From the NCBI GenBank assembly GCA_026991225.1, contig JALXCB010000194.1, positions 1-32,673 on the forward strand: 32,673 bases of DNA. The letters run 5' to 3'. Below are positions 6,689 through 27,818 of this stretch, one piece after another; the first letter of the stretch is position 1, and each line of letters opens with the position of its first letter. The notes under the pieces were generated by a model that did no database searches, was not told the origin of the DNA, and worked only from the letters and a program-made list of their open reading frames with translations. Position numbers and translations under genes: made by a program. The DNA is from Anaerolineae bacterium (GTDB taxonomy: Bacteria > Chloroflexota > Anaerolineae > J102).

Positions 6689-6842
6689 GTAACTACTAAG
6701 GTCGCGCCGCCGCTTTTTGCCACGAAGACACGAAGAAAACGAAGGCACGACGTATTTTTCTTTATTTTTCCTTTCGTGTCTTCGAAAAACTTCGAGCCTT
6801 CGTGGCTTTTGGCGGCCTAAAGTCCAGTACGTTAGCAGTTAC
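6689..6842. repeat. CACGAAG palindromic element with imperfect terminal inverted repeats
   Basis: The element begins GTAACTACTAAGGTCG and ends (reading inward on the other strand) GTAACTGCTAACGTAC. Between these are TTTTTGCCACGAAGACACGAAG and its inverted counterpart CCTTCGTGGCTTTTGGCGGCCTAAAG. It fits exactly between the yfcE-like start region and the vanZ-like stop, and its end supplies the last codons of vanZ (AAC TGC TAA). About 154 bp, like 2495-2647. Confidence 0.75.
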
Positions 6843-7263
6843 GTTCAGGTTGTTTTTTCGCGGTGGATGGCAGGGCGTGTCCTCGTCGGCTGAGGGCAAA
6901 CCATGCGACCGCACCAATCCATGCGCCGATCATATCCACGCCCAGGTCGAACCACTCATCCCCGCCCCAGGCCCGATGCTTGTACGCGAGCTGGACGGCT
7001 TCCTGCAGGAAAGCGGCCACCAGCACGACGCCCAACACCATCGCCAGCCGTGGCCAACGCATCTCACCCCCGGGCATGAGCAGGGTGAGGAGCAGGAAGG
7101 CAAGCACGCCGAACAGGAACGCGTGACTCACCCAGTGCATCCAGGCCGGGCCGAATACGAAGGCGAAGGCCGCGTCGTAGCCGGGGATATGGCGGGCGAT
7201 CCAGGCCATGGGCGCCAGCATCCCCAGCAGCCAGAACAGAAGCAGCGTCTTGCGGTGGATCAT
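6832..7263 (-). CDS. VanZ-like membrane protein
   Basis: A 143-residue protein starting MIHRKTLLLFWLL. The 550-residue ORF in the track only extends this frame backwards through the M50 gene. Four hydrophobic segments carry the VanZ-like pattern: HWVSHAFLFGVLAFLLL early, then FLQEAVQLAYKHRAWGGDEWFDLGVDMIGAWIG with the typical E..Q and the D...D..G face. VanZ-family members are small integral membrane proteins; most have no proven function. The ATG overlaps the M50 stop by 4 bases (ATGA), indicating translational coupling. The last two residues and stop (N C TAA) come from the GTAACTGCTAAC end of the neighbouring repeat, so the native C-terminus may have been altered by its insertion. Confidence 0.8.
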   Translation of the reverse strand: MIHRKTLLLFWLLGMLAPMAWIARHIPGYDAAFAFVFGPAWMHWVSHAFLFGVLAFLLLTLLMPGGEMRWPRLAMVLGVVLVAAFLQEAVQLAYKHRAWGGDEWFDLGVDMIGAWIGAVAWFALSRRGHALPSTAKKQPERNC

Positions 7264-8399
7264 TGCACCAGGGTGATGGGGATGGGGGTGAATAGCAGGA
7301 CGAGCAGGAGCATCATGAACCAGCCCAGGGCCTTGTATTTGCCGGGCAGGGGCGTCAGATCGTCTCGGGGGACAGCATACACCCGGCCCAGGAAGAAGAG
7401 CAAGGCTGTCCAGATCAGCCAGCCGGGATATTTGATGGAGAGCAGGAGGAAACCAGCGACGACGGCGTAGCTCAGGTATTTCGCTTTGGGCCCGAGCAGG
7501 GTGTAGATGACATGGCCGCCGTCCAGTTGCCCGGCCGGGATCAGGTTCAGCCCAGTGATGAACAGGCCCACCCAGGCCGCGAACGCGATATTGTGGATCA
7601 TCACGTCCATGCCGCCCGAGGGCAGTATCTGGCCGAAGACCAGCCATTTCGCGGCCAGGTAGAAGATGGAATTGCCTTCGAGGATGTAGGGCGGCGGGGG
7701 CAGAGGCGACACCTGGGAGAGGAAGAGGCCGTAGAACAGGAAGGGAATGGCCAGGATGAGCCCGCCCAGCGGCCCGGCCACGGCCATCTGGAAGAGTTGC
7801 TTGCGGTTCTTGGGCGGTTTGCGCATGACGATGACCGCGCCCAGGGTGCCGAAGATGGAGAAAGGCATGGGGATGAAGTAGGGCGGGCTGGTGGCCATTT
7901 TGTTGCGGCGAGAGACGAGAAAATGCCCGAACTCGTGGAAGAGGAGGATGAGGATCAGGGGGATGGCGAAACTCAGCCCGCCCTTCCAGTCCAGCCCGCC
8001 TGGGGTGATGGCGTGCACCGAGAAGACTGAGGCCAGCGTGGCGATGAGCAGCGCCCCAAAAAGGAGCCAGTTGGGTTTGGTCTCGGGCCATTGCCCCAGG
8101 GCCGCGTAGACCACTTGCTCCCCCTCCTCTTCCCGGAAGAAAACCTGCCAGCCCTCGCCCGCCAGCCGCCGCGAGATGACTTCGAACGCGGTTTCCGTGT
8201 CGGTGAGAAACCGTCCATGCAGACGGACGGCGTGATCGAAGGGCTTGAAGACCGCGTCGAAGCGGATGCCCTGGATATCGAAGTAGCCATCCACGGCCGC
8301 GGCCAGCATTTGGGTGAGACGTCCTTGAACGATGGGGTCGATGGTCACGGGCTTGTGAGGGGGAGTGAGAGGGGGGAATGAGTAGGTAAACAACGTCAA
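7260..8399 (-). CDS. M50 site-2-protease-like intramembrane metalloprotease (EGY-like)
   Basis: A protein of up to 379 residues. About 110 N-terminal soluble residues are followed by several membrane helices. The zinc-binding HEFGH is at 155-159, and the third ligand is the Asp of NLIPAGQLDGG (293), both in membrane segments, as in site-2 proteases. The overall layout, with a soluble N-domain and no PDZ, resembles the plant/bacterial EGY subgroup more than RseP. The expected role is cleavage of membrane protein substrates; the substrate is unknown. The track start is a TTG without a Shine-Dalgarno sequence; GTG at 8348 or ATG at 8309 are alternatives, so the N-terminus is uncertain. The stop overlaps the vanZ-like start by 4 bases. 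Confidence 0.85.
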   Translation of the reverse strand: MTLFTYSFPPLTPPHKPVTIDPIVQGRLTQMLAAAVDGYFDIQGIRFDAVFKPFDHAVRLHGRFLTDTETAFEVISRRLAGEGWQVFFREEEGEQVVYAALGQWPETKPNWLLFGALLIATLASVFSVHAITPGGLDWKGGLSFAIPLILILLFHEFGHFLVSRRNKMATSPPYFIPMPFSIFGTLGAVIVMRKPPKNRKQLFQMAVAGPLGGLILAIPFLFYGLFLSQVSPLPPPPYILEGNSIFYLAAKWLVFGQILPSGGMDVMIHNIAFAAWVGLFITGLNLIPAGQLDGGHVIYTLLGPKAKYLSYAVVAGFLLLSIKYPGWLIWTALLFFLGRVYAVPRDDLTPLPGKYKALGWFMMLLLVLLFTPIPITLVQ

Positions 8400-8400
8400 A

Positions 8401-8535
8401 TTTCCCGGCCCGCCCGGAGCTGAAGCCTCTGGGCCAGGAAACGACGCCGGGTGAACCCGGCTTTTTGCTTACACGGCCAGCCAAAAGCCCCGTTCATGGG
8501 GCGTCGTTTTTAGCCCGCAGGTTCACCTGCGGGTG
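8401..8535 (-). repeat. Four-hairpin cluster (family F)
   Basis: Read on the minus strand, hairpins occur in the order CCGCAGGTGAACCTGCGG, CCCCATGAACGGGG, GCCGGGTTCACCCGGC, then a degenerate GGCTTCAGCTCC. The linkers GGGCTAAAAACGACG and the order match the repeat at 27585-27710. The first hairpin is coding: it encodes the last residues (TPAGEPAG) and stop of the sulfotransferase. Confidence 0.75.
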
Positions 8536-9310
8536 TCTGGGTGTGAATAGGACGTTCCAGATAATGATACCCCAACTCCTCCAAAATCCGCGCATCCAAC
8601 TGTTGGCTGATGAATCGCGCATCCTCCTCCTTCAGCTCCTCTCGCCAGCGTTCATTCAGGTAATAGTCCCGATAATAGGCGAAATCCCGGTCCTCTTCAC
8701 CCTTGACGGCTTCCCGCACATTCTCGAAAATTCCGGCCCGCCGCGCAAACCCCGCCCCCGCGATGGCGGCGATGACGGCCTCGGGGGCAGCCACCAGGTC
8801 CTCGTAGCGGATGATCTGGCCTTCCACCTCTCGGGCCAGGGCCAGATAGGACGCGTTCTTCTGATTCCACATGACGACGGGATTGGGGAAGGGCTCCCGG
8901 CCGACGTTCTCCCGCCCCAGGGTGGGCCATGCCGCCCGGATGAAGGCGCTGAAGTCGCTGGCCGGGGTGGGATGATGGTAGGGATGGCGGTGCAGGGAGA
9001 GCAGCCAGGCGTAGGGATTTTTGACCAGAAAGAGGAAATGGGTCTGGCCCAACGGGCGGATGCTGCGCTCCAGCCGCCAGCGCGGGGGTGCGAGCATGTG
9101 TTTCCAGCCCAGATTACGCCCGAAGGTGACGTAAAAATAGGCGTCGATGGCCCGTTCCCGCAGGCGGGGATGGCCGCGAAAACGGCGTCGCAGCCAGGCC
9201 GGGGCCGCGCCCGGCAGGATGACTGCATCCAGATTGCGCCGGATGAGTTGTTCCAGGTAATTCGTGCCGGTGTTGCGCTCGCCGTAAAGCTTGATGAAGG
9301 TGGGGTTCAT
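8510..9310 (-). CDS. Sulfotransferase family protein
   Basis: A 266-residue protein with a P-loop-like 5'-phosphosulfate site near the N-terminus (KLYGERNTGTNYLEQLI), a 3'-phosphate-binding strand-helix (FLFLVKNPYAWLLSLHRHP) and IIRYEDLVAAPEAVI, the usual sulfotransferase order for PAPS binding. The acceptor cannot be told; a cell-surface glycan or lipid is plausible from context. Its ATG overlaps the TGA of the upstream FG-GAP gene by 4 bases, so it is the third gene of a sulfotransferase/FG-GAP/sulfotransferase unit. The C-terminal TPAGEPAG and the TAA are encoded by the first hairpin of a repeat also found near 27.6 kb, which suggests the original end was replaced. Confidence 0.85.
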   Translation of the reverse strand: MNPTFIKLYGERNTGTNYLEQLIRRNLDAVILPGAAPAWLRRRFRGHPRLRERAIDAYFYVTFGRNLGWKHMLAPPRWRLERSIRPLGQTHFLFLVKNPYAWLLSLHRHPYHHPTPASDFSAFIRAAWPTLGRENVGREPFPNPVVMWNQKNASYLALAREVEGQIIRYEDLVAAPEAVIAAIAGAGFARRAGIFENVREAVKGEEDRDFAYYRDYYLNERWREELKEEDARFISQQLDARILEELGYHYLERPIHTQTPAGEPAG

Positions 9311-11181
9311 GGCGCGGGATAGAAAACATCCAGAACCTGATCTGCGGGGATGCGCGTGAGCGTTTGCTCGTTGCCGTCGGGCCAGAGGATGGTAAGCCGG
9401 TCAATCATGGTCTGCGTCCCCATGCCGAAATAGAGACGGTAGTGGCCCTGACCATAGTGACTGCTTTCGCTCCAGCCCACGCGGCTTTCCCGACGGATTC
9501 CTTCGGCCTGAACAATGACCTTGGCTCCCATAGCGGCTTCGTTGCCTTCCGGGCCATGTAAGAGGACTTCCAGCCAATGGTTGGGGCCAGGACGGCGTTG
9601 GAAATAAGCGACTTGCCATTGTTTATCCAGCGTCTGGGTGGCTGTGACGAGTTCCTGATAGCCGTCGTTGTCCGCGTCGAACCAGACGGCGCGGGCGCTG
9701 CGCAAATTTTCCAGTGCGGGCGCAGGGGGCAGGCCCATGTCGGTGGCGAGCTGGAATCTGCCATCGGCAGTCTGACGAAACACGCCGTCGGGAACCGCGT
9801 GCAGGTCCATGCGGCCGTCATTGTCCACATCCACCCAATGAGCCGTGAGGCTGGCTCGGGGAAGTCCCAGGGATTCGGGAGCCTGATAGCGCAACGCGCC
9901 GTCATCATTGATCAGGATCAAATTGGCGTCCTTGGAAGCCACGAAGGCGTCGCCATCGCCATCGCCGTCGAAATCCCCCAGCGTGATATGCTGAGCCCAA
10001 ACCTTGGGCGCTTCGATTTGCTCTCTCCGAAAGTGCTCTCCCAGGTTGCGATAGAGTGAGACGCCATACTCCCCCGCCCAAATCATATCTGGACGGCCAT
10101 CATCATCTACATCCAGCCATGCGAAGGTCCCGGCATCGGGCATATCCAGGCCCAGGTCGGCCGCGGTCTCGGTGAAACGTCCTTCTTCGGAGCCCAAAAA
10201 CAGTTGATTCGCGGTCTGGCGCACGCATGTCACATAAAAATCCCCCCAGCCATCTCCGTTCACGTCTCGAAAACTGGCCTGGCGCGCTGCGCAGCCCCCC
10301 TTTTTCAAACCCCATCGGGCCCCGTCCAGCCGTCTGAACCGCTGTCCATCCATTTGAAAATACTCATAGGCCCGACGGTCGGAGGGCAGAACGTCGGTCA
10401 GGCCCAGGTTGGCGCCGCCGGTGATGAACACGCGCGTCTCTTCATCCCCTGCTGGCAACCAGATCACCCCATGCCGGTCTTTCAGGTCCAGGAGGATGTT
10501 GGGTTCGGGCGGCGACGTCCGCTCCTGGCCGATGAAGGTGCGCCGGGTCATGGCCGCATCCGCGAGCTCCAGGCGGATGGGAGAGCCTACGCGGGGATAG
10601 GGCTGAGGCGTGAGGATGAGTTGGCCGTTCCCATTCGCCTGAAATCCCACGACGGTGCGCTTTCCGGTTTGGACAAGGGAGGATGTCCATGCGCCAAAAT
10701 CCCCGCGGCTTTCGATGGTGAGGGGGGTAAAGAAGATGAGTTGACCTCGCACGGGGTTTGATGTCAAATGATGGCTGTTCAGCACGAGGCGGGAGTCATT
10801 CCAGTAGAGGTACAGGCCCGGTGTGGTGAACTGGGGGGTGTGGTCGGAGTCCTCCAGGCCCGGGAAGGCGGGGGATTGCGAAAGCCCGGTGGCTTCCAGG
10901 GGCCACTCTTTCCATCCGCCGCGGCCATTCCCCAACAGAAAGCTTTGCCGGGCGCTGTGATTGGCGGTAAACAGATCCAGGACGCCATCCCCGTTCATGT
11001 CGGTGACGCCAATATCGAAGAGGTGGAAGCTTTCGATAGGTAACGGACGGACCTGAAATGGATTTGATTGATCCGGCCGACGCCATTTCGCGGGCAAAAT
11101 GCAGCCCGCGACCATGCCCAACATCGCCAATGTCCCCAGGATCAGAATGAATCGCCACAAAGACGTCGAAGAATGGTTCAT
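9307..11181 (-). CDS. FG-GAP/VCBS-repeat lipoprotein with C-terminal ASPIC/UnbV domain
   Basis: A 624-residue exported protein. The N-terminus is a lipoprotein signal (FILILGTLAMLGMVAGC, lipobox VAGC). Repeated calcium-loop motifs of FG-GAP/VCBS blades follow: VTDMNGDGVLDLF, DVNGDGWGDFYV, DVDDDGRPDMIW, DFDGDGDGDAFV, DVDNDGRMDLHAV and DADNDGYQELV, consistent with an integrin-like beta-propeller. The last ~90 residues (VGWSESSHYGQGHYRLYFG, LTILWPDGNEQTL) fit the ASPIC/UnbV domain. It is probably membrane-anchored and faces outward; ligand unknown. It starts 15 bases after the upstream sulfotransferase stop and overlaps the downstream one, so all three are likely one operon. Confidence 0.9.
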   Translation of the reverse strand: MNHSSTSLWRFILILGTLAMLGMVAGCILPAKWRRPDQSNPFQVRPLPIESFHLFDIGVTDMNGDGVLDLFTANHSARQSFLLGNGRGGWKEWPLEATGLSQSPAFPGLEDSDHTPQFTTPGLYLYWNDSRLVLNSHHLTSNPVRGQLIFFTPLTIESRGDFGAWTSSLVQTGKRTVVGFQANGNGQLILTPQPYPRVGSPIRLELADAAMTRRTFIGQERTSPPEPNILLDLKDRHGVIWLPAGDEETRVFITGGANLGLTDVLPSDRRAYEYFQMDGQRFRRLDGARWGLKKGGCAARQASFRDVNGDGWGDFYVTCVRQTANQLFLGSEEGRFTETAADLGLDMPDAGTFAWLDVDDDGRPDMIWAGEYGVSLYRNLGEHFRREQIEAPKVWAQHITLGDFDGDGDGDAFVASKDANLILINDDGALRYQAPESLGLPRASLTAHWVDVDNDGRMDLHAVPDGVFRQTADGRFQLATDMGLPPAPALENLRSARAVWFDADNDGYQELVTATQTLDKQWQVAYFQRRPGPNHWLEVLLHGPEGNEAAMGAKVIVQAEGIRRESRVGWSESSHYGQGHYRLYFGMGTQTMIDRLTILWPDGNEQTLTRIPADQVLDVFYPAP

Positions 11182-11196
11182 GGCTCCAATTTTACA

Positions 11197-12057
11197 TCAC
11201 CCTCCTTCCGACTTCAATTCCTTTTTCAGATGTTGTTCCAGATAATTTTTGGCGTGGGCGTGGAGGATGACATCGAGTTGGTTGTATGCGCGAATCATGT
11301 CGATAACATTGGGCGGCAATTCCTGGACTGAGGGCCGCATTTTCGTTCGATTGACATGGTCTATGAAGACGCGGCGCCAGCCAAAGACGCGAGCGAAATA
11401 CTGGACGGATTGGGCGTAGGCTTCGGTCACGCCCAGTTCGTAGTGTGCGTCAAGGATATGGAGGGCGTGTTGCAAGGCATTGTGCAGCGATGCAGGCGCG
11501 CCGGGCAAAAAAGGAATGCCCGTCACATCGAGATGAGGGCCGAGAATGGCGCGCGTTTGGCCGTTGAAAAAGGGCGCCAAAAGGGAAGCGTGTTCTGGAT
11601 CGATCTCACCTTGAGCGGCATGGCGATAGATATCTCCCAAATCCCAGCCGAGAGCGTCCAGCAAACGCCCGATGTCGGCCCCTTTCCCCTTTCCTTTTCG
11701 GGTCAGGATTTTGGCGAAGTAGTAGAGAGAGAGCACGCGATTCACCGGGTCGCGCAGCAGAGTGAACACGCGAAAGGGCCGGTCGAGCACGGGGATGATG
11801 TAGTGGGCGGAGTGGGCGGCGATGCACTGGATGGCGGCTTTACGCTCGGGAGAAAGCGACCGGTAATACGCCTCATACCAGGCTACGGAGCCGCGATTGG
11901 GGCCGTAGAGCTCCAGCAGAGCCTTGCCCTTGTAGTTGGCCTGCACCACCTCGCGCAGCGAGGTGCCGCCCGTTTTGGCGATATGGTGATAAATGATCAC
12001 CGGGCCGTAGGGAGGCGAGGGCGTTTCACGTCGTTTCCGCCAGAAGCGTGGGATCAT
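11197..12057 (-). CDS. Sulfotransferase family protein (HS2ST/sulfotransfer_2-like)
   Basis: About 286 residues from ATG 12057 (MIPRFWRKRRETP). The PAPS-binding 5' loop is IIYHHIAKTGGTSLREVV and the 3' motif is FRVFTLLRDPVNRVLSLYYF, both textbook for membrane-type sulfotransferases acting on glycans. The track start at 12093 lies in the loop of a stem-loop terminator for the gene upstream, so the shorter start is preferred; neither has a clear Shine-Dalgarno. Many basic residues follow the start. The FG-GAP lipoprotein begins 15 bases downstream. Substrate unknown; two different sulfotransferases flanking a surface propeller suggest modification of a surface polymer or of exported material. 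Confidence 0.83.
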   Translation of the reverse strand: MIPRFWRKRRETPSPPYGPVIIYHHIAKTGGTSLREVVQANYKGKALLELYGPNRGSVAWYEAYYRSLSPERKAAIQCIAAHSAHYIIPVLDRPFRVFTLLRDPVNRVLSLYYFAKILTRKGKGKGADIGRLLDALGWDLGDIYRHAAQGEIDPEHASLLAPFFNGQTRAILGPHLDVTGIPFLPGAPASLHNALQHALHILDAHYELGVTEAYAQSVQYFARVFGWRRVFIDHVNRTKMRPSVQELPPNVIDMIRAYNQLDVILHAHAKNYLEQHLKKELKSEGG

Positions 12058-12072
12058 GGGCAGGGAGAATGG

Positions 12073-12108
12073 AAAAGCAGCGCACCCGGCCATGGATGCG
12101 CTGCTTGA
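12073..12108 (-). terminator. Stem-loop terminator after the surface-repeat gene
   Basis: The minus strand has AAGCAGCGCA, a 12-nt loop, then TGCGCTGCTT followed by TT and C. The 10-bp perfect stem lies 37 bases past the stop at 12143. The T tract is short (four), so efficiency may be modest. It overlaps the extended start of the next ORF. Confidence 0.65.
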
Positions 12109-12142: not shown

Positions 12143-13600
12143 TTATTCGGGGATGCCGTTGGTGGTGCCGGAACCGGCATTGGGAGCCTTGGAGACGCCG
12201 TTGAGCACAACGCCAATGGCGCCGGAGCCCGTCACCACGGCGTGCCCCTCGAAATTGTCGCCCAAGGGGATGAAGTCGGAAGCGTCGCGGCTGCCGCCGT
12301 TTTTGGTGTTGTAGCCAATCGAGGCGCCTCCGGACAGCGTGTCGGTCAGGGTCAGTTTGAGGTTGCCATTGCGGTCGTAGAACTTGACGGTGACGGTGTT
12401 ATCGCTGTTGGTCAGGTTCTGGACGATGACGGCGCTGAATTCTTTCCAGGCGCTACCATCCTTGATGCGGCGGATGCCGGGAACGAAGTATGTGGTCGCT
12501 TGAGACTGGGAGGCGTTGGGGGCTGCGTAATAGCCAGACTCCTTGCCACTGGAGCGCCACCATTGGGTGATGACGTTGGCGACGACGGCCTTGTCGGACA
12601 CGATTTTGACGGAGCCATCCCAAGAGGTGCCCAGATCATCGAAGAAGTCAGAGGGCTTGTCGCCGCCGTTGCGGGTGTTGAGACCGGCGGCGGAGTAAGG
12701 CGGGATGGTGATATCAAAGGTTTTGGAAGGGTTGACGCTGGCGTCGCGGGGAATGTACTCCAGGGTCACATTGGCGGTGGAGCCTTCCAGATTCTGGATG
12801 TTGATAGCAGAGAAGAGGAGCCAGCGGCCGTCATTGGTGGCCATGCGATACTGGCTGGGAACCACCAGCGTCGTAGAGCCAGAAGCGCCCGCGCAGTCGG
12901 CCGCGTTGTAGGTGGCGGTGCGGCCTTGCTGATAAACCACGCCTACGCCTGCCACGGTCTGGCCATTGGTGACTTCCACGACGGCGGAGCCATCCCACGG
13001 AGCGGTCAGGTTGGGCACGGCGCCGCCGGGATTGCTCAGATCATAAGTGTGTTGTGCGCCCGCGGGGATAGTGTCGGTGAATTGGCCTTCGTTGGTTCCA
13101 TTGCGCCTGAAGTAGGTGATGCGGAGGTCCGCCGGGCCGGTCCCCGTATTCTGGACGGTAAAGGAGGCGTAGATGGAGGGAGGGATCTTGAAGAGGCTGG
13201 GGAAGCAAATCTTGCTGGATCCCTGTGACACGCCTGAGTACAAGGCCATCTGGTAGCCGTCGCCAGGCCCGCCGGTCCACACGGTCTTCACCACCGAGGC
13301 CAACGGCTGGTTGGAGGAGACGACGCCCGCGCCCTGGAAGTTCTGGGGAAGCTGGACGCTGTCGGGATCGATCATGATCGAGCCGTTGCCAGGAATGGTG
13401 CGCTGCGGGCCCTGATGCACGCCGCCGCTGGTGTCATAATAGGTAAGCTGCGCTGTGGCCGCGTCCGCGGTTTTGTTCGCCAGTTCGGTGTAGGTGCTGC
13501 CCACGCCCGGATCGGGGTAGCTCTGGGCAGCCACGGGCAGGGCGACCATCGCCAGCAGCACGACCACTACAAGTGCGAGGGTCAAACGTCGTTTGGTCAT
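12143..13600 (-). CDS. Exported surface protein with four ~105-residue beta repeats
   Basis: The start is set at ATG 13600 (485 residues), with AGGAGA nine bases upstream and a clean signal peptide, MTKRRLTLALVVVVLLAMVALPVAAQ; the track ORF adds 39 spurious residues. The mature protein is four diverged tandem repeats. Each has a strand such as NKTADAATAQLTYYDTSGG, NTGTGPADLRITYFRRNGT, NLEGSTANVTLEYIPRDAS or NLTNSDNTVTVKFYDRNGN. After that come an IPPYSAAG-like turn and a W(D/E)GSVKI-like strand (APWDGSAVVEV, TSWDGSVKIVS, DNFEGHAVVTG). This suggests repeated Ig-like or CARDB-like sandwiches. I do not recognise a named family. No anchor is visible at the C-terminus, which ends shortly after the last repeat. 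Probably a secreted or S-layer-associated protein. A stem-loop terminator follows. Confidence 0.8.
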   Translation of the reverse strand: MTKRRLTLALVVVVLLAMVALPVAAQSYPDPGVGSTYTELANKTADAATAQLTYYDTSGGVHQGPQRTIPGNGSIMIDPDSVQLPQNFQGAGVVSSNQPLASVVKTVWTGGPGDGYQMALYSGVSQGSSKICFPSLFKIPPSIYASFTVQNTGTGPADLRITYFRRNGTNEGQFTDTIPAGAQHTYDLSNPGGAVPNLTAPWDGSAVVEVTNGQTVAGVGVVYQQGRTATYNAADCAGASGSTTLVVPSQYRMATNDGRWLLFSAINIQNLEGSTANVTLEYIPRDASVNPSKTFDITIPPYSAAGLNTRNGGDKPSDFFDDLGTSWDGSVKIVSDKAVVANVITQWWRSSGKESGYYAAPNASQSQATTYFVPGIRRIKDGSAWKEFSAVIVQNLTNSDNTVTVKFYDRNGNLKLTLTDTLSGGASIGYNTKNGGSRDASDFIPLGDNFEGHAVVTGSGAIGVVLNGVSKAPNAGSGTTNGIPE

Positions 13601-13785
13601 GGTGAAGTCTCTCCTGTGTTGAGTGGAAGGTTGGGATATTGCGGAAATTGAAATTGATTTCGCTGGGGAGCAAGCTTTGACTGTCTCCAGTTTAGCAACC
13701 TCGCAACCGGATTTCAATAGCTCATGAGGCGTATTTTTCAGGATTCGCTACGCCAGACGCTCCGAAAAGGGCTAATACTATCGGG

Positions 13786-15183
13786 TTAGTCTTCGGTTTC
13801 CGCCCGATTTCGGGCCGGATTCAGCCGGATGCGCACGCCTGACGGCCAGTCGGCGTAGGATGCGCCTCCGATCAGCGCGGGCAGGTCGCCTGAGCGAGCG
13901 ACTGACGCCAGCCAGGAGAGGAGATGCCCGCCGCGATCGATGACGCCTTCCGCCTTCAGAATCACTCGCCACCAGCCGGGATGCCATCCTGTCGCCAGGG
14001 CCATGAAGCCCGGAGGCGCGTCCGGTGTGAGATCGGAGGGGGATTGAAATGGATGTAAGAGGCCTTCGGTGTCGTAACCGGCCACGCCCAGTGGGCGATC
14101 GTGGACAGTCTCATCGACTGATGACGCTTCATAAGCCTTCCGTCGTTCCTGGATGAGGATGTCGACATGCGCCCGGCTATGCCATTCGCCCGTCATCATC
14201 TGTTTGATTTCTTCGATCTCCAGCATGAAGATCTCATCAGGATGGTGGATGCGCCCGTCATCTGCGCCCTCTTGCGCCGCGGCCAGAGCCCAATGCCGCG
14301 CCGCGGCCAGCACATAAGCCAGGGCTTCGCGGGCCTGGGCGTGGGCGACCAGGGCTTGCTGCGTCAGATCGATGGCCTTGCGCACGCCCGAGCGTCCTAA
14401 CATGCCCGCCTGGGAGAGGGCCTGCTTTTCCGCTTCTCCCCGGCGCTTTTGACCCCGCCCCACGTCCCAGTTCCAAACGTCCACAGGGGGCGTCGCCAGA
14501 AGCTCCTCGGGCGCGTCCATCACCCGCGGCAGCGCCACTTCGCCTTCCTGGGCCAAGGGCATGTGGCCGAACCTCTCGCGAAGCTCAGCCACCGGCTTGC
14601 CCACGACCAATCCGTGCAGAAATCGGCTGTCGGGCGTTTCCAGGCCCGCCACCAATCCCAACCGCAGGGCCCCAGCCCGCGCCGGGTCCTTCTCTTTCTT
14701 TGCCAGCAGCGTTCCAAGGTGTTGGTAACTTCCCACCGCGGTCAGGGCCAGAACGTGCACCCAGTTCAGCGCCTCCGCCACTTTGGGTTCGATTTCCTCC
14801 ATGACTTGCAAAAGCTGGGCCTGGCTCCATTCCGATTCGAAAACCCATTCCGACCAGCGCCGCAGTCGCGTGTAAGCGCCGGAGAAGTCCTGGAGCGCGG
14901 TCTGGGCCCGTTTCATGCCCTGGCCGGGTTTGCCTTTTCGGGTCACAGAGGGGGGAGCAACGCCCAACAACTGGCCCACATCGGGTTCGGAGCCGCCCCA
15001 TGTCGCCAGCACGAGTTCCGCCAGAAAGGCGTTGACGGCCTGGGGTTGGGTGATATCGGAGGGGGTGGGCGAGGACGGCGCTTGTTCGCTGGCGAGCCTG
15101 CTCAGAGAACTTGCCAGGGCCGGGCGGAGGATGCTCTGGCTGAAGGGGGTGAGTTTTGCGGGAATGTTCATTGTCGATTCCAT
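13786..15183 (-). CDS. PEP-synthase/rifampin-phosphotransferase-like protein with degenerate phosphohistidine domain
   Basis: About 465 residues from ATG 15183 (or 15171); the track ORF to 15726 runs through a repeat and the yebC promoter and is not credible. The middle region resembles the linker of PEP-utilising enzymes (RERFGHMPLAQEGEVALPR, then IFMLEIEEIKQMM...LIQERRKAYE). The C-terminal ~90 residues fit the swivelling phosphohistidine domain: TGWHPGWWRVILKAEGVIDRGGHLLSWLASVAR, then DLPALIGG. In active enzymes the serine of this motif is followed by the phosphorylated His (SHxA); here it is Trp (about residue 424). No N-terminal ATP-binding domain is present. A catalytic phosphotransfer role is therefore doubtful; a scaffold or regulatory function is possible. 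Alone on its strand, divergent from yebC. Confidence 0.7.
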   Translation of the reverse strand: MESTMNIPAKLTPFSQSILRPALASSLSRLASEQAPSSPTPSDITQPQAVNAFLAELVLATWGGSEPDVGQLLGVAPPSVTRKGKPGQGMKRAQTALQDFSGAYTRLRRWSEWVFESEWSQAQLLQVMEEIEPKVAEALNWVHVLALTAVGSYQHLGTLLAKKEKDPARAGALRLGLVAGLETPDSRFLHGLVVGKPVAELRERFGHMPLAQEGEVALPRVMDAPEELLATPPVDVWNWDVGRGQKRRGEAEKQALSQAGMLGRSGVRKAIDLTQQALVAHAQAREALAYVLAAARHWALAAAQEGADDGRIHHPDEIFMLEIEEIKQMMTGEWHSRAHVDILIQERRKAYEASSVDETVHDRPLGVAGYDTEGLLHPFQSPSDLTPDAPPGFMALATGWHPGWWRVILKAEGVIDRGGHLLSWLASVARSGDLPALIGGASYADWPSGVRIRLNPARNRAETED

Positions 15184-15228
15184 GAAGTGGCTGTGCGCCG
15201 GTGAGGATGAAGATGGCGGGCTACGTAG

Positions 15229-15325
15229 CCTCGTAAACCGGTAGACCAGGAAACCAGAGAAACCAGGTCGGGTCGCTCGCCCTCCCGGTCTACTGGTGTA
15301 CCGGTTTCCCGGTTTCCCGATTGCT
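15229..15325. repeat. GGAAACCGG/GGTCTACTGG palindrome (family D)
   Basis: AAACCGGTAGACCAGGAAACCAGAGAAACCAGG is matched by the inverted CCCGGTCTACTGGTGTACCGGTTTCCCGGTTTCCCG. The same words make up the inner palindrome at 3498-3565 and a half-copy at 31711-31752. The rest of the gap (15326-15420) shows nothing I recognise except GCTAACGTT near 15330. Confidence 0.65.
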
Positions 15326-15420
15326 AACGTTATTCTCGAATCGGGCTTGGAGATGAAACCATAGATTCGGAGAAAAAGGCAAGAAGCGGGAGCGCGTCGC
15401 GGGGAGTTTGCATAGGATTG

Positions 15421-15429
15421 TGATATAAT
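15421..15429 (+). promoter_or_regulatory. Extended -10 promoter for yebC-ruvC-hicB-ruvA
   Basis: TGATATAAT is a perfect extended -10 (TGn plus TATAAT). There is no good -35 at the standard distance. Transcription would start near 15436, giving a leader of about 80 nt to the yebC ATG. Confidence 0.55.
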
Positions 15430-15514
15430 GGAACCATAAGGCAGGCTGCGCCGGCGAATCTCTCGCCCGCGGGGTCTGGCGCAATCATCACTCTTTTTTG
15501 GAGACGTATTTTCT

Positions 15515-16264
15515 ATGGCAGGACATAGCAAGTGGGCGAATATCAAACGCCGTAAATCCGCCGTCGACGCCAAGCGCGGCAAACTGTTCACCAAGATCGC
15601 TCGCGAGATCCAGGCCGCGGCCCGGATGGGCGGTCCCGATCCCGAATCGAATATCCGTCTGCGGTTTGCGCTGGACAAGGCCAAGGCCGCCAACATGCCC
15701 AAGGATAATATCCAACGGGCCATCAATCGCGGCGCGGGCCTGGAGAAGGGCGCGGATCTGGAGGAGCTCGTCTATGAAGGCTATGCGCCCTATGGCATCG
15801 CCGTCATTGTCGAGGTGCTGACTGACAACAAGAACCGCACGGTGGCCGAGCTGCGCCATGTCTTCACCAAGGCGGGCGGCAATCTGGCCAGCAACGGTTC
15901 AGTGGCCTGGCAGTTCGAGCGCAAGGGCCAGATCACCGTCAAAATGGATGGGGTGGATGAAGACGAGCTGTTTTTGGTGGCTGCGGACGCGGGCGCAGAG
16001 GATGTGGAATTCGATGAGGGCGTGGCTATCGTCACCACCGCGGATACGGACCTGGCCGCCGTGCGGGATGCGCTGGTGGATGCAGGCTATGAGGTGGAAG
16101 ACGCCGAGCTGACCATGGTCCCCAAGACTGAAATGACGCTGCCCGTGGATCAAGCCATGAAGGTCACCGCGTTGCTGGAGCGGCTGGAAGACCTGGATGA
16201 CGTGCAAAAGGTGCATTCCAATCTGGCCATGAGCGACGAGCTCTACGCGGAACTGGCGGCGTGA
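15515..16264 (+). CDS. yebC: YebC/PmpR family DNA-binding regulatory protein
   Basis: A 249-residue protein with the invariant family start AGHSKWANIKRRKSAVDAKRGKLFTKIAREI. Also present are ARMGGPDPESNIRLRFALDKAKAANMPKDNI and the RAINRGAG stretch, a YEGYAPYGIAVIVEVLTDNKNRT core, and the C-terminal domain ending DDVQKVHSNLAMSDELYAEL. Length is normal for the family. Members are cytoplasmic; some act as transcription regulators and recent work links others to translation of problematic peptide stretches. It overlaps ruvC by 4 bases (GTGA), an association seen in many bacteria. The extended -10 promoter lies ~85 bases upstream. Confidence 0.96.
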   Translation: MAGHSKWANIKRRKSAVDAKRGKLFTKIAREIQAAARMGGPDPESNIRLRFALDKAKAANMPKDNIQRAINRGAGLEKGADLEELVYEGYAPYGIAVIVEVLTDNKNRTVAELRHVFTKAGGNLASNGSVAWQFERKGQITVKMDGVDEDELFLVAADAGAEDVEFDEGVAIVTTADTDLAAVRDALVDAGYEVEDAELTMVPKTEMTLPVDQAMKVTALLERLEDLDDVQKVHSNLAMSDELYAELAA

Positions 16265-27086: not shown

Positions 27087-27768
27087 GCGGGTGCGTCCCA
27101 AATTATGGGCGGGTTGCGTCTGACGCCCCGGAGGTGAACTCCGGGCTAGAGGCTGTTATGCACTTTTCCGCCCTCAAAGGTCAGGATCGCCGCATCGGAG
27201 GTTGAAATTCGCCGCAGATAACGCGGATAAAGCAGATTTCCGCGGATTTTTTCAAAAGGATGCCATCTTTTTTCCGTAACAATCCGTGTTGATCCGTCGC
27301 ATCAGCCTCATCCGTGGCGAATTGAAACGCACGTCACCCACAAAATCACGCCAAATTGGCGATAAGTTCATAACAGGCTCTAGTAACGACGCCCCCTCAA
27401 GGGGGCTTTCCGAGCCAGCCCGCGCCCAAAGCCGGGTTCACCCGGCGTGGTTTTGTAGCCCGGCGCTTCAGCGCCGGGTGGAGCCCGCATGACCGAATTC
27501 CTGATGACAACGCGATTGGCCAAAATTTTAGGACGCACCCCTTTCTCTCGGGTGCGTCCCAAATGGGCGCGTTGCGTCTGACGCCCCGGAGGTGAACCTC
27601 CGGGCTAGAAACGACGCCCCCTCAAGGGGGCTTTCCGAGCCAGCCCGCGCCCAAAGCCGGGTTCACCCGGCGTGGTTTTGTAGCCCGGCGCTTCAGCGCC
27701 GGGTGGAGCCCGCATGACCAAATTCCTGATGACAACGCGATTGGCCAAAATTTTAGGACGCACCCCTT
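27087..27768. repeat. Repeat island with a 159-bp near-exact direct duplication (family F)
   Basis: 27385-27543 and 27610-27768 are the same 159-bp sequence with a single mismatch that I can find (GACCGAATTC versus GACCAAATTC). Each holds hairpins CCCCCTCAAGGGGG, CCGGGTTCACCCGG and GGCGCTTCAGCGCC, and ends TTTTAGGACGCACCCC. GGGTGCGTCCCAAAT at 27087 and 27550 faces GGACGCACCC at 27531 and 27756 as a 10-bp inverted terminal pair. 27107-27155 and 27563-27610 duplicate the GGAGGTGAACCTCC hairpin. 27210-27320 has degenerate GCAGATAACGCGGATAA and AATCCGTGTTGATCCGTCG words. No gene is credible in 26914-27842. Confidence 0.8.
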
Positions 27769-27818
27769 CGAGCCTTCGTGGCTTTTGGCGGCCTAAAGTC
27801 AAGTACGTTAGCAGTTAC
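27769..27818. repeat. Right half of a CACGAAG element
   Basis: GAGCCTTCGTGGCTTTTGGCGGCCTAAAGTCAAGTACGTTAGCAGTTAC matches 6793-6842 with one clear difference (C to A). It joins directly to the end of the family F duplication, so one has inserted next to or into the other. Confidence 0.7.

Follow-up and report, generated by a model that had tools for sequence, protein, structure and literature searches.

We analysed a 32,673-nucleotide stretch of DNA (the window; contig JALXCB010000194.1 of assembly GCA_026991225.1, Anaerolineae bacterium) from a group of uncultured Chloroflexota obtained partly from hydrothermal vents, and describe a trio of genes on its minus strand that encode, in this order, the sulfotransferase ST_B, a CRTAC1-like lipoprotein with FG-GAP and UnbV domains, and a second sulfotransferase, ST_A. 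On balance we favour the reading that the trio is a genus-specific accessory cassette that sulfates a cell-envelope acceptor. According to the proposed mechanism, ST_B and ST_A would be cytoplasmic sulfotransferases dependent on 3′-phosphoadenosine-5′-phosphosulfate (PAPS), each acting on a different position of one envelope acceptor, most likely a glycan that would be sulfated on its carrier before export. PAPS would be supplied by a fused ATP sulfurylase-adenosine-5′-phosphosulfate (APS) kinase encoded elsewhere in the genome in an exopolysaccharide locus, and the lipoprotein would be exported to the outer face and anchored there to bind or organise the sulfated product. The acceptor, the division of labour, the role of the propeller, its Ca2+ binding and the expression of the genes are what we infer.

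We favour this reading because the gene order and a 4-base ATGA overlap are kept down to approximately 45% protein identity, because all three genes are under purifying selection, and because a related genome retains the empty site. Further reasons are the predicted PAPS-sulfotransferase fold of ST_A with its invariant motifs, the pairing of ST_A relatives with second sulfotransferases or their position beside polysaccharide export or sugar-nucleotide genes, the exopolysaccharide locus in which the fused enzyme is accompanied by a sulfotransferase and glycan genes, and the combination of sulfotransferases apparently lacking signal peptides with a lipoprotein whose lipobox cysteine is invariant.

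A preliminary description of this DNA had placed three genes on one strand with a 15-base gap and a 4-base overlap, and these coordinates proved exact, the gap between ST_B and the lipoprotein gene spanning 11196-11182. Its start codon for ST_B was likewise retained: a longer frame from the ATG at 12093 was rejected because this codon lies inside a terminator hairpin and the relatives align from 12057. To follow the trio we used nine genomes of the genus, including the window genome; these are fragmented metagenome assemblies, so that absences are soft. The trio, whose conservation in relatives the preliminary description had left to be checked, is intact and in the same order in five of the nine (the window genome, G009, G008, G010 and G015). 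Both flanks, the secreted protein UP1 upstream and an M50 protease downstream, are retained in G009 and G010, and since these two genomes were assembled independently, a contig-join artefact was rejected. The six genomes in which lipoprotein and ST_A genes occur together all show the ATGA overlap, three genomes share an identical 15-base gap, and the arrangement survives divergence of the proteins to 45-57% identity. Where measurable, the ratio of nonsynonymous to synonymous substitution (dN/dS) was 0.12-0.41, which places all three genes under purifying selection, and synonymous sites were near saturation in the older genome pairs. The recurrence of order and overlap under purifying selection is more than chance. 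Synonymous divergence (dS) between the window and G009 fell along the locus from 1.56 for ST_B to 0.94 for the lipoprotein, 0.54 for ST_A and 0.44 for the M50 gene, an unevenness that suggests allele exchange.

In G005, which belongs to another genus of the same family, a second upstream gene (UP2), UP1 and M50 are contiguous (locus L118), the trio is absent, and 96 bases separate UP1 from M50. Because of this adjacency, the simplest reading is that G005 preserves the empty site and that, in the window's lineage, the trio or a precursor of it entered this site as a cassette. Apart from the window genome itself, none of the 400 genomes sampled from the phylum yielded an ST_B orthologue or a full-length orthologue of the lipoprotein at the thresholds used. 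UP1 and UP2 (12143-15726), which flank the insertion site and keep their order in the family, match no Pfam family and are secreted or of unknown nature.

The claim that two different sulfotransferases are present was borne out, and the P-loop strings quoted for them match the sequence. By sequence criteria, ST_A and ST_B belong to different families, ST_B being placed by Pfam and ST_A by its fold. ST_A carries the motifs GERNTGTNYL, NLGWKH and KNPYAWLLSL, and an alignment of 19 ST_A sequences revealed invariant GER..T (G10-E11-R12..T16), LGWKH (L67-G-W-K70-H71), KNPY.W..S (K97-N98-P99-Y100..S105), PY and a C-terminal YY....W. By analogy, GER..T, KNPY.W..S and LGWKH may represent the 5′-phosphosulfate P-loop, the 3′-phosphate motif and a basic or histidine catalytic candidate, respectively. 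Because its only Pfam match, Sulfotransfer_3, is sub-threshold (20.9 versus 27 bits; at E ≤ 0.01 it is matched by 10 of the 19 family sequences), we filed ST_A to the superfamily and not to Sulfotransfer_3. The AlphaFold2 (AF2) model of ST_A reached a predicted local distance difference test (pLDDT) score of 90.9, and a Foldseek search of the PDB returned 12 chains at E ≤ 0.001, all of them sulfotransferases, headed by TPST2 (E 2.6e-5, probability 1.00) and including CurM and SULTs; these matches share 10-18% identity with ST_A. On the modelled fold, membership in the PAPS-dependent sulfotransferase superfamily is secured, and PAPS binding and transfer are predicted. The best sequence match of the family profile was the CurM/olefin synthase sulfotransferase (E 0.006 over approximately 80 residues). 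A single-sequence search of the PDB with ST_A returned just short chance matches to AcrIIC4 and was discarded; no ST_A was found in phage records, and a PHROGs search gave chance-level matches only. The final codons and the stop of the window's ST_A are provided by a dispersed palindromic repeat (8486-8556; core TTAGCCCGCAGGTTCACCTGCGGGTG, which occurs more than 40 times in the genome), and the ST_A genes of the relatives end without it.

Scanning 84,980 species genomes with two short patterns, we located at least 22 loci of the ST_A family, a lower bound, scattered sporadically over Chloroflexota, Gammaproteobacteria, roseobacters, Desulfobacula, Methyloprofundus and Flavobacteriales. Within the class, 19 of 298 genomes contain relatives, and most of the distant ones are weak. 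No ST_A relative outside the genus has a propeller gene or an ST_B orthologue as its neighbour. At no fewer than 6 of the 16 loci outside the genus, another sulfotransferase, from a different family, is fused, adjacent or nearby (Table 1), a count that carries no control for general clustering, and ST_B relatives in other genera cluster too (G006 C376 and G017 C21). The Inositol_P domains beside or fused to ST_A relatives are best read as CysQ-like phosphatases of 3′-phosphoadenosine-5′-phosphate (PAP), which would clear PAP. Of two further relatives, one (L084) adjoins a polysaccharide export gene and the other (L086) has sugar-nucleotide genes nearby.

Table 1. Features of the trio and its flanks in the window, and sulfation loci elsewhere (L157, window genome; L077 to L089, loci of ST_A relatives).
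Feature	Position	Strand	Description
M50 site-2-type protease	7260..8399	minus	Pfam PF02163, 2.1e-18; insertion flank
ST_A	8510..9310	minus	266 amino acids; sulfotransferase of rare family
ATGA overlap	9307..9310	minus	4 bases; lipoprotein stop/ST_A start
FG-GAP/UnbV (CRTAC1-like) lipoprotein	9307..11181	minus	624 amino acids
ST_B	11197..12057	minus	286 amino acids; Sulfotransfer_2-type sulfotransferase
Predicted intrinsic terminator after UP1	12073..12106	minus	13-bp GC-rich stem and T run
UP1	12143..13603	minus	upstream secreted protein, no Pfam family; other insertion flank
Exopolysaccharide-type locus	L157, G000 (window genome) contig C198		Sat-CysC (ATP sulfurylase-APS kinase) fusion, then sulfotransferase
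ST_A relative	L077		Sulfotransfer_1 and sulfatase
ST_A relative	L078		two Sulfotransfer_2
ST_A relative	L081		two Sulfotransfer_2
ST_A relative	L085:9992-12121		Desulfobacula; one open reading frame, ST_A-type, Sulfotransfer_4 and Inositol_P
ST_A relative	L088		Sulfotransfer_4
ST_A relative	L089		Sulfotransfer_4 fused to Inositol_P, ~5 kb away

ST_B contains the P-loop HHIAKTGGTSLR and a 3′-phosphate-site-like motif, LLRDPVNRVLSLYYF, and matches Sulfotransfer_2 (PF03567) with 22.4 bits against a cut-off of 22; the same family matches all six ST_B members of the genus, at best with 2e-6. Its orthologues, 57-74% identical, were found within the genus only. The ST_B profile faintly matches heparan sulfate 6-O- and 2-O-sulfotransferases (E 0.0056 and 0.086), and an AF2 model built from 5 sequences (pLDDT 53) was too poor for a fold search. 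By eye, neither ST_A nor ST_B shows a signal peptide.

The lipoprotein matches FG-GAP_3 (2.8e-31) and, at residues 550-617, UnbV_ASPIC (8.7e-15), and its profile matches human CRTAC1 (cartilage acidic protein 1; PDB 9etn) with an E-value of 1.5e-14. Cys27, the lipobox cysteine, does not vary within the genus, DxDxDG motifs resembling Ca2+ loops recur along the protein, and a stretch of approximately 190 residues after the first repeat (residues 95-285) has no Pfam match. Because the sulfotransferases are apparently cytoplasmic and the propeller is exported, the most likely role of the latter is to act on the product after export or to serve as an acceptor itself.

By its gene content, the window genome can make PAPS. 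In addition to the Sat-CysC fusion, the exopolysaccharide-type locus contains genes for a NusG-like regulator, a UDP-sugar dehydrogenase, a sulfotransferase of the Sulfotransfer_3 type, a hexapeptide transferase, a Wzy_C ligase and a glycosyltransferase, and a sulfotransferase match beside an APS kinase recurs in the family, in G009, G011, G013, G015 and G003. It is very probable that this lineage produces a sulfated glycan at its surface, and we infer that this is the material on which the trio acts. The suggestion of the preliminary description that the set forms a small pathway for sulfating a surface polymer with a dedicated propeller stands as far as the conserved, overlapping or near-abutting genes and the PAPS genes are concerned; the three genes are not always found together, and the polymer acceptor and the dedication of the propeller are presumptive.

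Several observations weigh against the proposed cassette. The trio is not obligate: G013, whose contig is 95% identical in DNA to that of G015 over the shared part, has UP1, the lipoprotein and ST_A without ST_B, G014 has UP1 and ST_B without the lipoprotein and carries ST_A on a different contig, and searches of the fragmented assemblies of G011 and G012 found none of the three genes. Because the genome contains about a dozen further sulfotransferase matches, the Sat-CysC fusion is no evidence for the trio alone. Among the window genes scanned with Pfam, the neighbours of the trio include no glycosyltransferase, flippase, export or other glycan-synthesis gene. FG-GAP/UnbV relatives elsewhere in the class adjoin unrelated genes, none was found beside a sulfotransferase, and their neighbours, judged by eye only, include one MBOAT-like protein as well as glycosyltransferase-like ones.

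Moreover, the terminator just before ST_B leaves the transcription of this gene unexplained. The predicted hairpin, between UP1 and ST_B, ends approximately 15 bases ahead of the position where ST_B starts. In seven genomes of the genus, UP1 is followed by a corresponding hairpin and T run with paired changes in the stem, for example CAGCGCGTCC/GGGCGCGCTG in G010 and GCAGTGCATC/GGTGCACTGC in G015; UP1 of G005 likewise ends in a strong hairpin, but a different one. Because this strong terminator separates UP1 from ST_B, transcription of the trio would have to rely on read-through or on a promoter overlapping the hairpin. A promoter search for the trio yielded nothing convincing.

The same evidence bears on other explanations of the locus. 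The three genes could be a passenger island without joint function, held together by shared descent alone, as might be expected of a set that occurs in a single genus among the sampled genomes, is partial in two of its members and was not found in two more. The 4-base overlap and the purifying selection across a divergence deep enough to bring dS near saturation in the older pairs speak against this, and we regard neutral co-location as unlikely. It is still less probable that the target of one or both enzymes is a protein, such as the lipoprotein or UP1, sulfated before export in the manner of tyrosylprotein sulfotransferases. The nearest solved folds to ST_A are indeed human tyrosylprotein sulfotransferases 2 and 1, and the overlapping lipoprotein and ST_A genes stay paired where ST_B is missing; however, these matches lead those to SULTs and CurM by a small margin, with a template modelling (TM) score of approximately 0.5, so that the fold cannot tell the acceptor class, and ST_A relatives elsewhere have no propeller neighbour and in several cases lie near glycan genes.

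We likewise consider it improbable that the enzymes sulfate a small molecule, either a membrane lipid or a natural product, with the lipoprotein as an unrelated rider in the operon. No lipid, nonribosomal peptide synthetase (NRPS) or polyketide synthase (PKS) genes were found near the trio, and the CurM match, which heads the sequence-profile hits for the ST_A family and would favour such a role, is weak and short. At least one NRPS of the genome with an embedded Sulfotransfer_3 domain also points in this direction: a 3065-residue protein (L158:8571-17768; contig C58) in which the domain occupies residues 1206-1420, before the final condensation and adenylation module. A sulfotransferase match is also present in several further frames of approximately 3000 codons in this genome. 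Beyond the cassette that we favour, one may speculate that ST_A represents an uncharacterised PAPS-sulfotransferase subfamily that typically acts in concert with a sulfotransferase of a second family, the pair being dedicated here to the CRTAC1-like lipoprotein by sulfating it or by making its sulfated ligand; we hold this extension to be rather unlikely.

The nearest described system is the synechan (xss) cluster of Synechocystis, which encodes two sulfotransferases of distinct subfamilies, XssA and XssE, eight glycosyltransferases and a Wzx/Wzy system; the sulfate stoichiometry of synechan was reported to fit roughly the gene number, and sulfated polysaccharides among bacteria were stated to be reported from cyanobacteria only (PMC8205485). 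The trio resembles it in joining two sulfotransferases of distinct subfamilies and in its proposed surface product but has no adjoining glycosyltransferases or Wzx/Wzy genes and includes a lipoprotein; a synechan-like locus with another sulfotransferase, the Sat-CysC locus, lies elsewhere in the window genome. The lipoprotein shares the FG-GAP propeller and C-terminal UnbV domain of CRTAC1/ASPIC-UnbV proteins but is a bacterial lipoprotein with a long Pfam-unmatched stretch. ST_B resembles heparan sulfate 6-O-/2-O-sulfotransferases in its HIxKTGGTxL P-loop and RDPVxRxxS motif, whereas it is short, apparently cytoplasmic and without a membrane anchor, and the E-values are weak. The ST_A model matches the tyrosylprotein sulfotransferase, CurM and SULT folds with a probability of approximately 1.0 but has GERN(S/T)GTxYL as its P-loop and KNPYAW instead of the more usual motifs.

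The preliminary description knew of no operon of this make-up, and our limited literature search on UnbV/ASPIC or FG-GAP with sulfotransferase operons and on CRTAC1 in bacteria returned nothing relevant; the presence of two distinct-subfamily sulfotransferases in one surface-glycan cluster is, by contrast, already known from synechan. Every part of the trio is of a known kind, but the combination appears to be undescribed, the new elements being the lipoprotein as a partner and the position of the genes as a stand-alone set. A compact acquired cassette in Chloroflexota that includes a surface protein of its own would provide a short, testable sulfation gene set outside the cyanobacteria, and the rare ST_A family, repeatedly accompanied by a second sulfotransferase and once by a CysQ-like fusion, would provide further ones.

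The other window families identified with Pfam, in addition to the M50 protease, were a metallophosphoesterase, an aroK-aroB fusion, YjeF, CinA, sucCD, a subtilase and domains of unknown function (DUFs). The window also contains, at 27380-27818, two 164-base direct repeats with 99% identity and a 53-base repeat that is 98% shared with positions 6790-6842.

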